Assembly (NCBI GenBank): GCA_016934215.1
Contig: JAFGTE010000006.1
Location: forward strand, 1 to 34,881
Direction: 5' to 3'
Length of the DNA: 34,881 nucleotides
Source: Candidatus Peregrinibacteria bacterium
GTDB lineage: Bacteria; Patescibacteriota; Gracilibacteria; UM-FILTER-43-11
A program made the position numbers and the translations under genes. Below are positions 18,184-22,011 of this stretch, piece after piece (the first letter of the stretch is position 1; each line of letters begins with the position of its first letter). The notes below the pieces were generated by a model that worked only from the letters and a program-made list of their open reading frames with translations, made no database searches and had not been told where the DNA came from.

Positions 18184-20784
18184 TTAATTTTCGAGTTCGA
18201 TATACTTTGCTTCGTCCACGGTATCCATGGTGCTGGCTTTAACGCCACCCTGGGCAATGGAATAAAGATAGTTTCCGATGTAGATGATGCGCTGGATATT
18301 TTTTTCGTAATCGTAGGGAAAATATTCACCCAGCCCGATGACCATATCGTCATCTGTGTAATGAGTAACGCGGCCGCGTTCTTTGAAACCGTCAGTCAGA
18401 TTCAGGGTGTAGACCACGGCTCCATCAAAGGTGGTTTCATAGCGTTCCCAGTTTGGTTCCGTACAGCTTCCCAGCCCATCGCAGTCATCCGTACAAACCG
18501 AAACACCGTTTTCGAGGTGACATTCAGACGGAATACAACGCTGCAGACAGAGACTGGGGCAGGTGCTGTATAAGTATTTTCCGCATTGCAGGTCTTCGTT
18601 ATTTACCTTTTCCTGAATCCGAATGGGAAAAGCCAGCAGTTCCTTTGATTTATCGAAAAGCAGGGCTTTATGATTGTACAGAAGTTCAGAATAAGTTCCT
18701 TGGTCACCGATGTTTTCGACAAATTTCTGTTTGGGGTTATTGGGGTCGCTGACGTCAAAGAGGGCCATTTTGAAGCCATCCGTCACGGTGCCGCCCCACT
18801 GGTTTTCGGTGGTTTCCTGTCCAAAGCCGATGATGTTGTTTTCATCGTAAGGGTGGATGTATTCGCTGTAACCGGGAATCTTTAGTTCCCCGAGGACGAC
18901 CGGCTGACGAGGGTTGGAAAGGCCGATCACAAAAAGCGGATCGATTTGTTTGAAGGTAACCATATAAAGGCGGTTGCCGAGGAAGCGCGTGGAGTAAATG
19001 CGCTCACCTTTGGCCAGACCTTCCAGACTGCCAATGACTTTCATGTCTTCGTCCAGCACATAAACATTGTTACGGGCAGGATCTTCTTCGCTCCACATAT
19101 TGCCGGCGTTGGTCGCGATCCGGAAGTAGCCGCTATGTTGATCCATGGAGAACTGGTTGAGAATGACACCGGGTACTTCTCCGCGGGCTTTGAACTCAAT
19201 GTCGCCTCCATTCAGCTCAAAGCGGAAAAGGCGGGTCATGGTGCGATCACGATTCCAGTCCCAGTCTGTGTAGCGTTCGTAACCGTAATCGGTGTTGGCG
19301 GCAAAAAGGTCGGTCTGGGAAACATAAACGTTTTCGCTGCTACCGAGCATTACCTCACGATGGATTTCAGAATCTGAATCACTGATGTCAAACGAAGCGG
19401 TGATCATATAGCGGGGCATATCGTAGCCGGGGAAGTAACGGATATCTATACAGCCCACCATAGCCTCGGGGTCTCCGTCGCCATCGATCAGGGTCGGCAA
19501 AAGATCATCACCTGTTTCAATGTAATCCCAGCGCCAGACATTCGGACTGGCGTTGAGTACCAGATAAAGCTGGTTTCCGATGCGACGGGAAGTCTGATAG
19601 TAACCGTCAAAGGTCACTTTGCGTAATTTTTTCGGGTTGCTACGATCACTGATGTCATACACGTAAACTTTGGACTGGTCACTGCGGTAAGCGGGAGGGA
19701 CGATCATGGCTTGTTTCACAAGCGGCATGATATCGTAGTAATTTGATACCTGTCCGATGACGATCAGTTTGTCGTCTTCGACGTATAGTTCACGGGGGTA
19801 AAAAGAATCATCTCCAAAATCAATTTCCGCTTCTTCTTTCATCACGGATGGCGGCCAGGCTTTGATAATACGAACAGTATCGTCTTTTACCAGATAGATG
19901 TGGGAACCGTCATTTTTGATAATATCCGCTTCATCCACGCCTTCGACCTGAATGTTGGTAGAAGAATAGTCATCGGCGACAGCGGACTTTGCGGCCGTGG
20001 TCTCTGCCCCCATACCGGCCGCCATGGGTGCCATGGCCTGCGGTTCATCCGCCTCTCCTTCAACTGCTTCCTCCAGCATGATCATATCACCGCGCATGAC
20101 AGGATAGTAATACTGACGGCTTTCATATTCTTTGAACCTTTCCATCAGCGCGGGACAGGAGGCAACCGTTGGCAGAGGACTGTTCAATTCGTTGAAATGT
20201 GCGGTCACTTTATCCTGCACGTCATCTTCCAGCCGATAAACGATTTCGGACATTTCTCCGCGGGTAATTTGTTTGTCGAAGGCCTGAACGGTGATTGGAA
20301 TAGCACGAAGTGTTTCAAGCGTTTTTACATAACCCGCATACCATGCTTCATCAATATAAGTGCTGACTGAAATAACATCTTCGGCTTCGACGATGATTTT
20401 ACTGGCTTCGGCAAAGTTGATGAAACCGGCCGGCTTAAAAGTGCCATCAGGATAACCGCTGACGACGCCGTGTTTTTTAGCCATACAAACATATTTGCTG
20501 AACCACTCTCCGGCCGGCACATCAGGAAAGGAAGCTGCACTGCAGGCTTCGATTTCTTCATCGGAATAAATGGCTTCGATAATGATTTTGGTAAACTCGG
20601 CACGATTGATGCGGTTGTCCGGTTTATAAGAACCGTCGGGATACCCCTGAACGATCCCGTTATCTTTCAGAAACTGAATGGCATCCCCGTTAAAATGTTC
20701 GCCCTGAACATCCGAAAATACTTCAGCTCTGGCGTTGGGCACCAAAAATAACAGAGACAATAAAAATATGGCAGCTTTTTTCAT
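18184..20784 (-). CDS. Secreted SLH-domain beta-propeller surface protein
   Basis: An 866-residue exported protein. A signal peptide (MKKAAIFLLSLLFLVPNARA) is followed by three S-layer homology repeats (about 23-75, 82-140 and a weaker third 145-190), with the GYPDGSYKPDNRINRAEF signature, which attach proteins to the cell wall. After a low-complexity Ala/Met/Glu linker (about 240-270) comes a large beta-propeller domain like PF09826 (Beta_propel), with many blades of the type YVYDISDRSNPKKLRKV. A Cys-rich insertion with 8 Cys in 41 residues (734-774) interrupts the propeller. It is likely part of the surface layer. The ATG at 20784 lacks a Shine-Dalgarno sequence. A TATAAT lies upstream (20813-20808). 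Confidence 0.88.
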   Translation of the reverse strand: MKKAAIFLLSLLFLVPNARAEVFSDVQGEHFNGDAIQFLKDNGIVQGYPDGSYKPDNRINRAEFTKIIIEAIYSDEEIEACSAASFPDVPAGEWFSKYVCMAKKHGVVSGYPDGTFKPAGFINFAEASKIIVEAEDVISVSTYIDEAWYAGYVKTLETLRAIPITVQAFDKQITRGEMSEIVYRLEDDVQDKVTAHFNELNSPLPTVASCPALMERFKEYESRQYYYPVMRGDMIMLEEAVEGEADEPQAMAPMAAGMGAETTAAKSAVADDYSSTNIQVEGVDEADIIKNDGSHIYLVKDDTVRIIKAWPPSVMKEEAEIDFGDDSFYPRELYVEDDKLIVIGQVSNYYDIMPLVKQAMIVPPAYRSDQSKVYVYDISDRSNPKKLRKVTFDGYYQTSRRIGNQLYLVLNASPNVWRWDYIETGDDLLPTLIDGDGDPEAMVGCIDIRYFPGYDMPRYMITASFDISDSDSEIHREVMLGSSENVYVSQTDLFAANTDYGYERYTDWDWNRDRTMTRLFRFELNGGDIEFKARGEVPGVILNQFSMDQHSGYFRIATNAGNMWSEEDPARNNVYVLDEDMKVIGSLEGLAKGERIYSTRFLGNRLYMVTFKQIDPLFVIGLSNPRQPVVLGELKIPGYSEYIHPYDENNIIGFGQETTENQWGGTVTDGFKMALFDVSDPNNPKQKFVENIGDQGTYSELLYNHKALLFDKSKELLAFPIRIQEKVNNEDLQCGKYLYSTCPSLCLQRCIPSECHLENGVSVCTDDCDGLGSCTEPNWERYETTFDGAVVYTLNLTDGFKERGRVTHYTDDDMVIGLGEYFPYDYEKNIQRIIYIGNYLYSIAQGGVKASTMDTVDEAKYIELEN

Positions 20785-20840: not shown

Positions 20841-20868
20841 TTGACAAGCCATTATCAAAAAGTATAAT
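20841..20868 (+). promoter_or_regulatory. Consensus promoter of the aroF-aroB operon
   Basis: TTGACA (20841-20846), a 16-base spacer and TATAAT (20863-20868): both hexamers match the sigma-70 consensus perfectly. The expected start is near 20875, about 3 bases before the leader-peptide ATG and 135 bases before aroF. So strong a promoter fits control downstream by attenuation. Confidence 0.8.
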
Positions 20869-20877
20869 GAATACGCT

Positions 20878-20928
20878 ATGCATTCAAGCAATTACTTCTT
20901 CTACGGTTTTTATTTTAAAGTCCGCTAA
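20878..20928 (+). CDS. Phe/Tyr-rich attenuator leader peptide
   Basis: A 16-codon frame encoding MHSSNYFFYGFYFKVR, ending in TAA at 20926-20928. Seven of eight consecutive residues (6-13) are aromatic: Tyr, Phe, Phe, Tyr, Gly, Phe, Tyr, Phe. This run of codons for the pathway's end products is the hallmark of transcription-attenuation leaders such as the pheA leader of enterobacteria. The frame lies directly after a consensus promoter, so it is almost leaderless, and its last codons form strand 1 of the attenuator. Ribosome stalling at these codons would report low charged tRNA-Phe or tRNA-Tyr. It is too short to be found by a normal gene search. Confidence 0.88.
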   Translation: MHSSNYFFYGFYFKVR

Positions 20929-20988
20929 GCGGTCGTTGTTTGATACTTATAAAAAACTAAATAACGTCCGCAGACATGCGGATTTTTT
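20920..20988 (+). promoter_or_regulatory. Transcription attenuator: alternative 1:2, 2:3 and 3:4 hairpins
   Basis: Strand 1 is GTCCGC (20920-20925), strand 2 GCGGTCGTTGTTTG (20929-20942), strand 3 TAAATAACGTCCGC (20958-20971) and strand 4 GCGGA (20978-20982). Strands 1:2 pair as CCGC/GCGG with the leader stop codon TAA as the loop. Strands 2:3 pair over 13 of 14 positions (two G-U, one U-U mismatch), the antiterminator. Strands 3:4 form the terminator. A ribosome stalled on the Phe/Tyr codons covers strand 1 and frees strand 2 to pair with 3. A ribosome reaching the stop covers 1 and 2 and lets 3:4 form. Confidence 0.82.
20966..20988 (+). terminator. Attenuator terminator hairpin upstream of aroF
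   Basis: GTCCGC (20966-20971), loop AGACAT, GCGGAT (20978-20983) and a run of six T (20983-20988). It is a classical intrinsic terminator 22 bases before the aroF start codon. Confidence 0.8.
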
Positions 20989-21009
20989 ATTACTTAATTC
21001 AAACAAATC

Positions 21010-22011
21010 ATGATTATCGTGATGCAAAATACGGCCACTCATAAAATGGTCGAACATGTGGTCAGAGTTGTCGCCGAACATGACCTGAAAACCGAAGTGA
21101 TGCACGGCGAACAGCGTGTGGCTATCGGTGTGATAGGCGACCGCACAAAACTGGACGAAGGCAATGTGATGCGTCTTCCCGGAGTGAAAGAAATTCTGCT
21201 CGTTTCAAAACCTTATAAACAGGTGAGCCGTGAGTTCAAACCCGAAAACACGATCGTAAAGATTTCTGAAGAGGTGGCTTTCGGAGCAGGAAAACCAGTT
21301 ATTATTGCCGGCCCTTGCGGCGTGGAATCGGAAGATCAAATTAATATTATTGCCAAAGGTGTGAAGAAACTGGGGGCTGGTATGCTGAGAGGCGGCGCTT
21401 TCAAGCCCCGCACCTCCCCTTATTCATTTCAGGGTATGGGAGAGGAGGGGTTAAGGCTGCTGAAAGCGGCGGGCAAGGCCAATGGTTTACCGGTTGTTAC
21501 CGAATGTGTGTCGGTCCAGGATTTACCGTTATTTGAAAAACATAAGATCGATATGATTCAGATCGGGGCCCGCAACATGCAGAATTTTGACCTTTTGATA
21601 AAGGCAGCAGAAACCGGATTACCTATTCTACTGAAACGGGGCATGTCTGCCACGGTAGAAGAGTTTTTACTGGCAGCGGAATATATTTTTAACCGAGGTA
21701 ATAAAAACGTGGTTCTCTGTGAACGTGGCATCCGCACTTTTGAACAATCCACCCGCAATATTCTGGACCTCAATTCGCTCGCTCTGATCAAAGAGATTTC
21801 TCATTTGCCTATTGTGGCTGATCCGAGTCATTCGGCCGGACGATATGATTTAGTGACGCCGCTGGCCAGAGCCGGTCTGGCCGCCGGAGCGGATGGAATT
21901 ATTGTGGAAGTTCATCATAAACCCGATGAAGCGCTTTCGGATGGTAAGCAGTCGCTGACGCTTGAATCGTTTGAAACACTTATGAATGATTGCAGAAAAT
22001 GTTATATATAG
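21010..22011 (+). CDS. aroF: 3-deoxy-7-phosphoheptulonate synthase (DAHP synthase, type I beta) with N-terminal regulatory domain
   Basis: A 333-residue enzyme that condenses phosphoenolpyruvate and erythrose 4-phosphate, the first shikimate step. Residues 1-70 form a ferredoxin-like domain as in the Thermotoga enzyme, where it mediates Tyr/Phe inhibition. The barrel follows with GPCGVESEDQ (101-110), RGGAFKPRTSPYSFQG, KRGM (209-212), CERGIRTFE and DPSHSAGR (271-278). Expected metal ligands are C103, H274, E300 and D311, all present. The ATG at 21010 lies 22 bases after the attenuator terminator, without a clear Shine-Dalgarno sequence. aroB starts 3 bases after the stop, so the attenuator controls both. 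Confidence 0.96.
   Translation: MIIVMQNTATHKMVEHVVRVVAEHDLKTEVMHGEQRVAIGVIGDRTKLDEGNVMRLPGVKEILLVSKPYKQVSREFKPENTIVKISEEVAFGAGKPVIIAGPCGVESEDQINIIAKGVKKLGAGMLRGGAFKPRTSPYSFQGMGEEGLRLLKAAGKANGLPVVTECVSVQDLPLFEKHKIDMIQIGARNMQNFDLLIKAAETGLPILLKRGMSATVEEFLLAAEYIFNRGNKNVVLCERGIRTFEQSTRNILDLNSLALIKEISHLPIVADPSHSAGRYDLVTPLARAGLAAGADGIIVEVHHKPDEALSDGKQSLTLESFETLMNDCRKCYI

Follow-up and report, generated by a model that had tools for sequence, protein, structure and literature searches.

A predicted Phe/Tyr transcription attenuator before aroF-aroB, and aromatic leaders before aroF in related bacteria

An attenuator-like element precedes aroF-aroB

The window, that is, the whole 34,881-nt stretch of DNA analysed here, contains at positions 20841-21010 an element that is very probably a ribosome-mediated transcription attenuator of aroF-aroB. 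This reading, proposed in a first-pass annotation of the same DNA, is supported by the anatomy of the element, the conservation of its leader, stems and terminator, coevolution of the 1:2 stem, one compensatory change in the 3:4 stem and a modelled switch. The features are listed below; "family" refers to the family of the window's genome, and an asterisk marks a stop codon.

20841-20868, + strand: sigma-70-type promoter TTGACA-16-TATAAT (TTGACA at 20841-20846 and TATAAT at 20863-20868, read from the sequence); 12/12 consensus; 10 of 11 family members share the 16-nt spacer
20878-20928, + strand: leader peptide ORF MHSSNYFFYGFYFKVR*, 16 codons, ATG 9 nt past the -10 box; homologues in 11 family genomes
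20884-20892, + strand: strand 1, leader start region, with partner 20935-20943; minimum-energy fold, and swap test over 11 genomes (0/20,000)
20893-20916, + strand: aromatic codon run YFFYGFYF, putative sensor; GFY in 10 of 11 leaders, third-position changes synonymous
20922-20932, + strand: small hairpin CCGC-TAA-GCGG with the leader stop codon as its loop; present and nearly invariant
20929-20942, + strand: strand 2, antiterminator partner of strand 3; stem in 11/11 family leaders, mostly by conserved sequence
20958-20971, + strand: strand 3, common to antiterminator and terminator; from the sequence and the family alignment
20966-20988, + strand: intrinsic terminator, 3:4 stem plus T run; one stem U-A pair is A-U in three relatives
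21010-22011, + strand: aroF, DAHP synthase type I-beta with an N-terminal ferredoxin-like domain; NF006421 and TIGR01361 above cut-off, PF00793, PF18152
22015-23043, + strand: aroB, 3-dehydroquinate synthase, 3 nt past aroF; TIGR01357 above cut-off

The promoter, 16-codon frame, RNA strands and terminator described in the first-pass annotation were all recovered where it had placed them, and the ferredoxin-like domain that it had assigned to the enzyme was matched by PF18152 at the AroF N terminus. Seven aromatic residues (Phe or Tyr) fall within eight leader codons. For the pairing of strand 2 with strand 3, computation gave 12/13 pairs in the inner part, and the 14th position is a G-U pair by eye; the 13 of 14 originally counted therefore holds when G-U is included. 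The terminator stem lies within 20966-20983 and the T run ends at 20988, 21 nt from aroF at 21010. The leader RNA of the window folded more stably than its shuffles (z = -3.1). Perfect copies of the promoter pattern numbered about six per strand, 13 in total, in the 1.01 Mb genome compared with 1 in the backward control, indicating that the promoter match is meaningful. The attenuator features found were thus an end-product codon run, a terminator between leader and aroF, an exclusive antiterminator and a 1:2 stem. Chorismate synthase is encoded elsewhere in the genome, away from aroF-aroB.

The leader arrangement is conserved in the family

We then considered the regions upstream of aroF in related genomes. 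The gene was present in 13 of 18 family genomes, and its upstream region could be judged in 12, G008 being left out because its contig ends 195 nt upstream. The leader arrangement was kept in 11 of these 12, always directly before aroF; the exception was the congener G002, whose aroF has no such leader. Matches to a leader model had E values of 4e-12 to 1e-17 in the 11 family genomes and 3e-16 in the window. The model was built from the same 11 sequences and is circular for them, yet it shows one copy per genome before aroF, and its search found nothing stronger than those 11. One further match, L122 in G001, precedes a gene without a known family.

The alignment showed that the run of aromatic codons is kept, as are the alternative stems. 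The front of the leader peptide is variable, its ending GFYFxxR* is conserved, and third codon positions change synonymously. The 16-nt promoter spacer was found in 10 of 11 members, and in the same 10 a gap of 8-10 nt separates the -10 box from the ATG, which indicates that the leader transcript is nearly leaderless throughout the family and agrees with the early description of the leader peptide as almost leaderless.

Coevolution of the RNA stems

The first-pass annotation had suggested looking for covariation in the 2:3 and 3:4 stems, and this was borne out for one of them. In the 3:4 stem, a U-A pair is replaced by A-U in three relatives, a compensatory change, and 98% of cells are paired. 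The 2:3 stem is present in every family leader, chiefly through conserved sequence, but its covariation among the 11 sequences was not beyond chance (168/500 shuffles; 2146/20000 permutations).

For the 1:2 stem, the stop-codon hairpin originally put forward does exist, but the coevolving stem lies elsewhere. When the leader start region was paired with the segment that follows the leader stop, the mean energy was -12.1 kcal/mol for each genome's own segments compared with -8.5 kcal/mol for swapped ones, and none of 20,000 permutations was as low; the sequences differ among genomes and are complementary inside each. These results indicate that the working, coevolving 1:2 stem is formed by the leader start region and the post-stop segment, not by the stop-codon hairpin. 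The CCGC-TAA-GCGG hairpin is kept but nearly invariant, so that covariation is uninformative for it, and we rejected it as evidence for the 1:2 stem. Because the 1:2 stem includes or abuts the start codon, an untranslated leader would be expected to hide its own start and to free strand 3.

A modelled switch and the proposed mechanism

The effect of a translating ribosome was modelled by constrained folding, with an E. coli-like ribosome footprint placed on each codon; the model describes equilibrium, not kinetics. In 10 of 11 genomes, the terminator was almost never predicted (probability about 0) with the A site on most of the aromatic codons and almost always (about 1) once it had reached the stop codon, and L015 showed a weaker switch in the same direction. 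In all 11, antiterminator gave way to terminator around the last codons of the aromatic run. For the window, the terminator probability was 0.00 through Phe11, 0.14 at Tyr12, 0.67 at Phe13 and 1.00 from Val15. With the spacer shuffled, 0-25% of trials still gave the switch, the figure for the window being 12%. At equilibrium, the free RNA of the window was divided between terminator (0.56) and antiterminator (0.44), and the free RNA of some relatives preferred the antiterminator; with free-RNA folding undecided in this way, the behaviour of the leader without translation is uncertain.

We infer ribosome stalling, termination in the cell, the direction of control and the identity of the tRNAs from these data, and propose the following course of events. 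Judging from the promoter spacing, the leader ATG would lie only a few nucleotides into the transcript, and a ribosome would begin there to translate the 16 codons. A shortage of charged tRNA-Phe or tRNA-Tyr would stall it on the aromatic codons, its footprint covering strand 1 and those codons and leaving strand 2 exposed, and strand 2 would then take strand 3. With 2:3 formed, the terminator would be absent and aroF-aroB would be transcribed. Under normal charging, the ribosome would reach the stop codon and mask strand 2, strands 3 and 4 would pair, and transcription would end near 20988. In an untranslated leader, the start region may pair with the post-stop segment, making strand 3 available to the terminator. 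The mixture of Phe and Tyr codons suggests that both tRNA-Phe and tRNA-Tyr may be sensed, as first proposed from the codons.

A terminator and antiterminator before an amino acid gene are also the architecture of a riboswitch, either T-box-like or of another kind, which would bind a ligand or tRNA and for which the short ORF would be incidental. We consider this explanation very improbable. No Rfam family reached its gathering score; the best cis-regulatory lead was Phe_leader (RF01859), at 19.9 bits and E 0.45 compared with a gathering score of 55 bits, so that the leader is not a sequence member of that family. Searches of the window leader with gathering and permissive thresholds yielded nothing that explains the element, Phe_leader and Trp_leader both remaining below their cut-offs, and no T-box match was found in the leader at gathering or at E 5. 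It is the amino acid sequence that is conserved, and Phe-, Tyr- or Trp-rich peptides recur with unrelated RNA in many families. Moreover, only about 3 nt of transcript would precede the ATG, leaving no room for an upstream aptamer.

A second leader in relatives is a likely translational attenuator

Seven family members (L010, L011, L013, L014, L015, L016 and L017) have a second short ORF, which lies past the first terminator and ahead of aroF. It is Tyr-rich in six of the seven (MHFNKFGYYRFY* in L010), and that of L016 has little Tyr. The start and Tyr codons of this ORF pair with a segment running into the start of an N-terminally extended aroF, for example GGATATTACAG with CTGTAATATCT and ATGCATTT with AAATGCAT. 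In a swap test, own pairs had -20.5 kcal/mol and swapped pairs -15.4 kcal/mol (6/20,000). Judging from these sequences, the second leader likely acts by translational attenuation, in which the aroF start codon would be masked and relief would come through Tyr stalling. In the Bacillus subtilis rtpLP-rtpA system, stalling at leader-peptide codons makes the downstream gene's start region accessible; this is an analogue of the relatives' second leader only, with Trp instead of Tyr and a different gene.

The second leaders, with their pairing to the aroF start region, lend some plausibility to translation-level control of the window's element as well, whereby a ribosome on the leader would gate the aroF start rather than termination. 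However, the window's own genome lacks the second leader, and its sole element ends in a terminator with a U tail, which leaves 21 nt to aroF. We therefore regard gating of translation in the window as highly unlikely, and transcription attenuation remains our preferred reading.

Aromatic leaders are widespread before aroF

A short ORF was counted as an aromatic leader when it began with ATG and 5 or more of 8 codons were aromatic; dinucleotide shuffles and the antisense strand served as controls. Among 353 genomes of the class, 98 have aroF. Outside the family, 43 of 78 class aroF upstreams had an aromatic leader, compared with an expectation of 1.1 from shuffles and a single antisense case; with at least 6 aromatics in 8, the count was 32 of 78 against 0.1 expected. 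A promoter lay within 40 nt of 34 of the 43 leaders, compared with 11% for random codons, and promoter distances in class leaders fell either at 6-13 nt (near-leaderless) or at 20-33 nt (short-leader). The peptides and terminators of these leaders are unlike those of the window, and some contain Trp. In other classes of the phylum, aromatic leaders were found in families f49 (3/3), f52 (2/3 over the threshold), f45 and f89 (one each), and in none of 4 aroF-like genes lacking the N-terminal domain. In other phyla, 15 of 78 named aroF loci had an aromatic leader, with 1.3 expected. These counts indicate that the device is common before aroF generally, and especially in this phylum. Aromatic-rich aroF leaders in Calditrichota, Deltaproteobacteria, Clostridia and Acidobacteria include L056, L069, L084, L091, L101, L102, L104, L106 and L108, along with others.

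The weakest alternative, an ordinary terminator of another transcript beside a chance aromatic ORF, can draw on the ease with which Phe and Tyr codons arise in AT-rich DNA, but has next to no probability: the upstream neighbour (18184-20784) runs divergent from the leader and aroF, so that the terminator cannot end that gene and can act only on a transcript heading towards aroF, aromatic leaders are about 40 times commoner than in dinucleotide shuffles, and the leader-model E values in the window and its relatives refute it by conservation unless the alignments are wrong.

The class to which the window belongs is part of the CPR and is probably Gracilibacteria in the broad GTDB sense. This assignment is based on the lack of uL30, the recoding of TGA and a genome of 1 Mb; the MAG contains no 16S gene. 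No uL30 match was obtained in any of 60 class genomes, with controls positive in 10 of 14, in keeping with the CPR-type genome suspected in the first-pass annotation. In family f14 (G132, G134, G143, G144, G147 and G175), thrC frames hold 9-20 in-frame TGA, and by this sequence evidence TGA is read as sense in that part of the class.

A broader proposal, to which we give slightly less than an even chance, is that leader-peptide attenuation is an ancient and major way of controlling amino acids in this CPR phylum, and that part of the window's family has two serial aroF sensors. The first would be the Phe/Tyr transcription attenuator and the second the mostly Tyr-rich leader, whose start codon would pair with the aroF start codon and on which stalling would open translation.

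Relation to known attenuators

In E. coli, pheL-pheA and trpL-trpE are attenuated by four-strand logic, with a codon run as sensor and an intrinsic terminator. The element described here resembles these systems (RF01859, RF00513; mechanism in part as given in PMC11802643) in all three respects. It differs in that it precedes a DAHP synthase gene and aroB, has mixed Phe and Tyr codons, is near-leaderless, and uses the start-codon region as strand 1.

A DAHP synthase gene is itself the target in Corynebacterium glutamicum, where, according to PMC11802643 and PMC4046766 on the work of Neshat 2014, the aroR-aroF attenuator has a Phe-Tyr-Phe leader and stalling raises transcription; the former also states that Tyr supply was reported to be without effect. 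Both systems have an aromatic leader peptide before a DAHP synthase gene. The C. glutamicum system belongs to another phylum and has Phe-Tyr-Phe rather than the longer run of 7 aromatics in 8, and the likeness described here is one of arrangement. The uORFC-13-1 motif, a computational candidate before aroF restricted to Acholeplasma and environmental sequences (PMC8632094), likewise combines a promoter, a short ORF with Phe, a terminator and then aroF; unlike that Acholeplasma-restricted motif, the leaders reported here occur in many CPR families. In A. laidlawii (L097), an aromatic ORF precedes aroF, and the leader is different. The novelty claimed at first thus holds in part: a search of one open-access collection found no earlier report of leader-peptide attenuation in the CPR, but attenuation of DAHP synthase was already known in Corynebacterium and proposed in Acholeplasma. 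The mechanism is textbook; for its apparent occurrence through much of this branch, we found no previous description.

Very little work has been done on regulation in CPR bacteria. The element indicates that coupling of transcription to translation, along with starvation-responsive control of biosynthesis, is retained in a reduced genome, and the leader sequence in turn predicts which amino acids the cell senses. The near-leaderless start offers a test case for leaderless initiation in the CPR. Since aromatic leaders precede aroF in groups that include Clostridia, Calditrichota and Deltaproteobacteria, present annotation may greatly understate how often DAHP synthase is attenuated.

Other candidate attenuators

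The window's own genome was scanned for near-leaderless ORFs followed by a terminator, with peptide content ignored. The scan gave 12 candidates compared with 4 in a reversed control, and three of the 12 combined a strong promoter with a biosynthetic gene immediately downstream: the aroF leader, MNTVSQNIISIIIQKPA and MNHFDLASKANKKSKTA. The Ile-rich MNTVSQNIISIIIQKPA* (L161, minus strand; C14, about 80.0-80.1 kb), with promoter and terminator, lies before a LeuA/CimA-like synthase gene that has no close homologue in the family. Lys-rich leaders were observed before aspartokinase, namely MNHFDLASKANKKSKTA (L166:5373-5423, own genome, C16) and MILFSQDKAGTKKTKFAHAS (L289, G012); apart from the own genome and G012, such a leader was not evident in the genomes examined. 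A Leu-rich leader, MVQNNALQLLLLLNVT (L139, minus strand), and a Val/Leu-rich leader, MNTWNVLHVVLVLNPL (L144:16258 onward), were seen in the own genome (C11 and C16, respectively); they have similar TAGTGGCG plus TCCGCC..GGCGGA elements, and the genes that follow are without a known family.

Ile-rich leaders were also found before one type of threonine synthase (L341/L127 in G314, L336 and L339). Since only these three were seen, all beside one thrC type and none at others, attenuation is not general for thrC. In G018 (L126), an aromatic leader, MMNTNRFYFYGFYFWIT*, precedes a putative archaeal-type ADH synthase, identified by eye, which would represent the alternative entry into the shikimate pathway.
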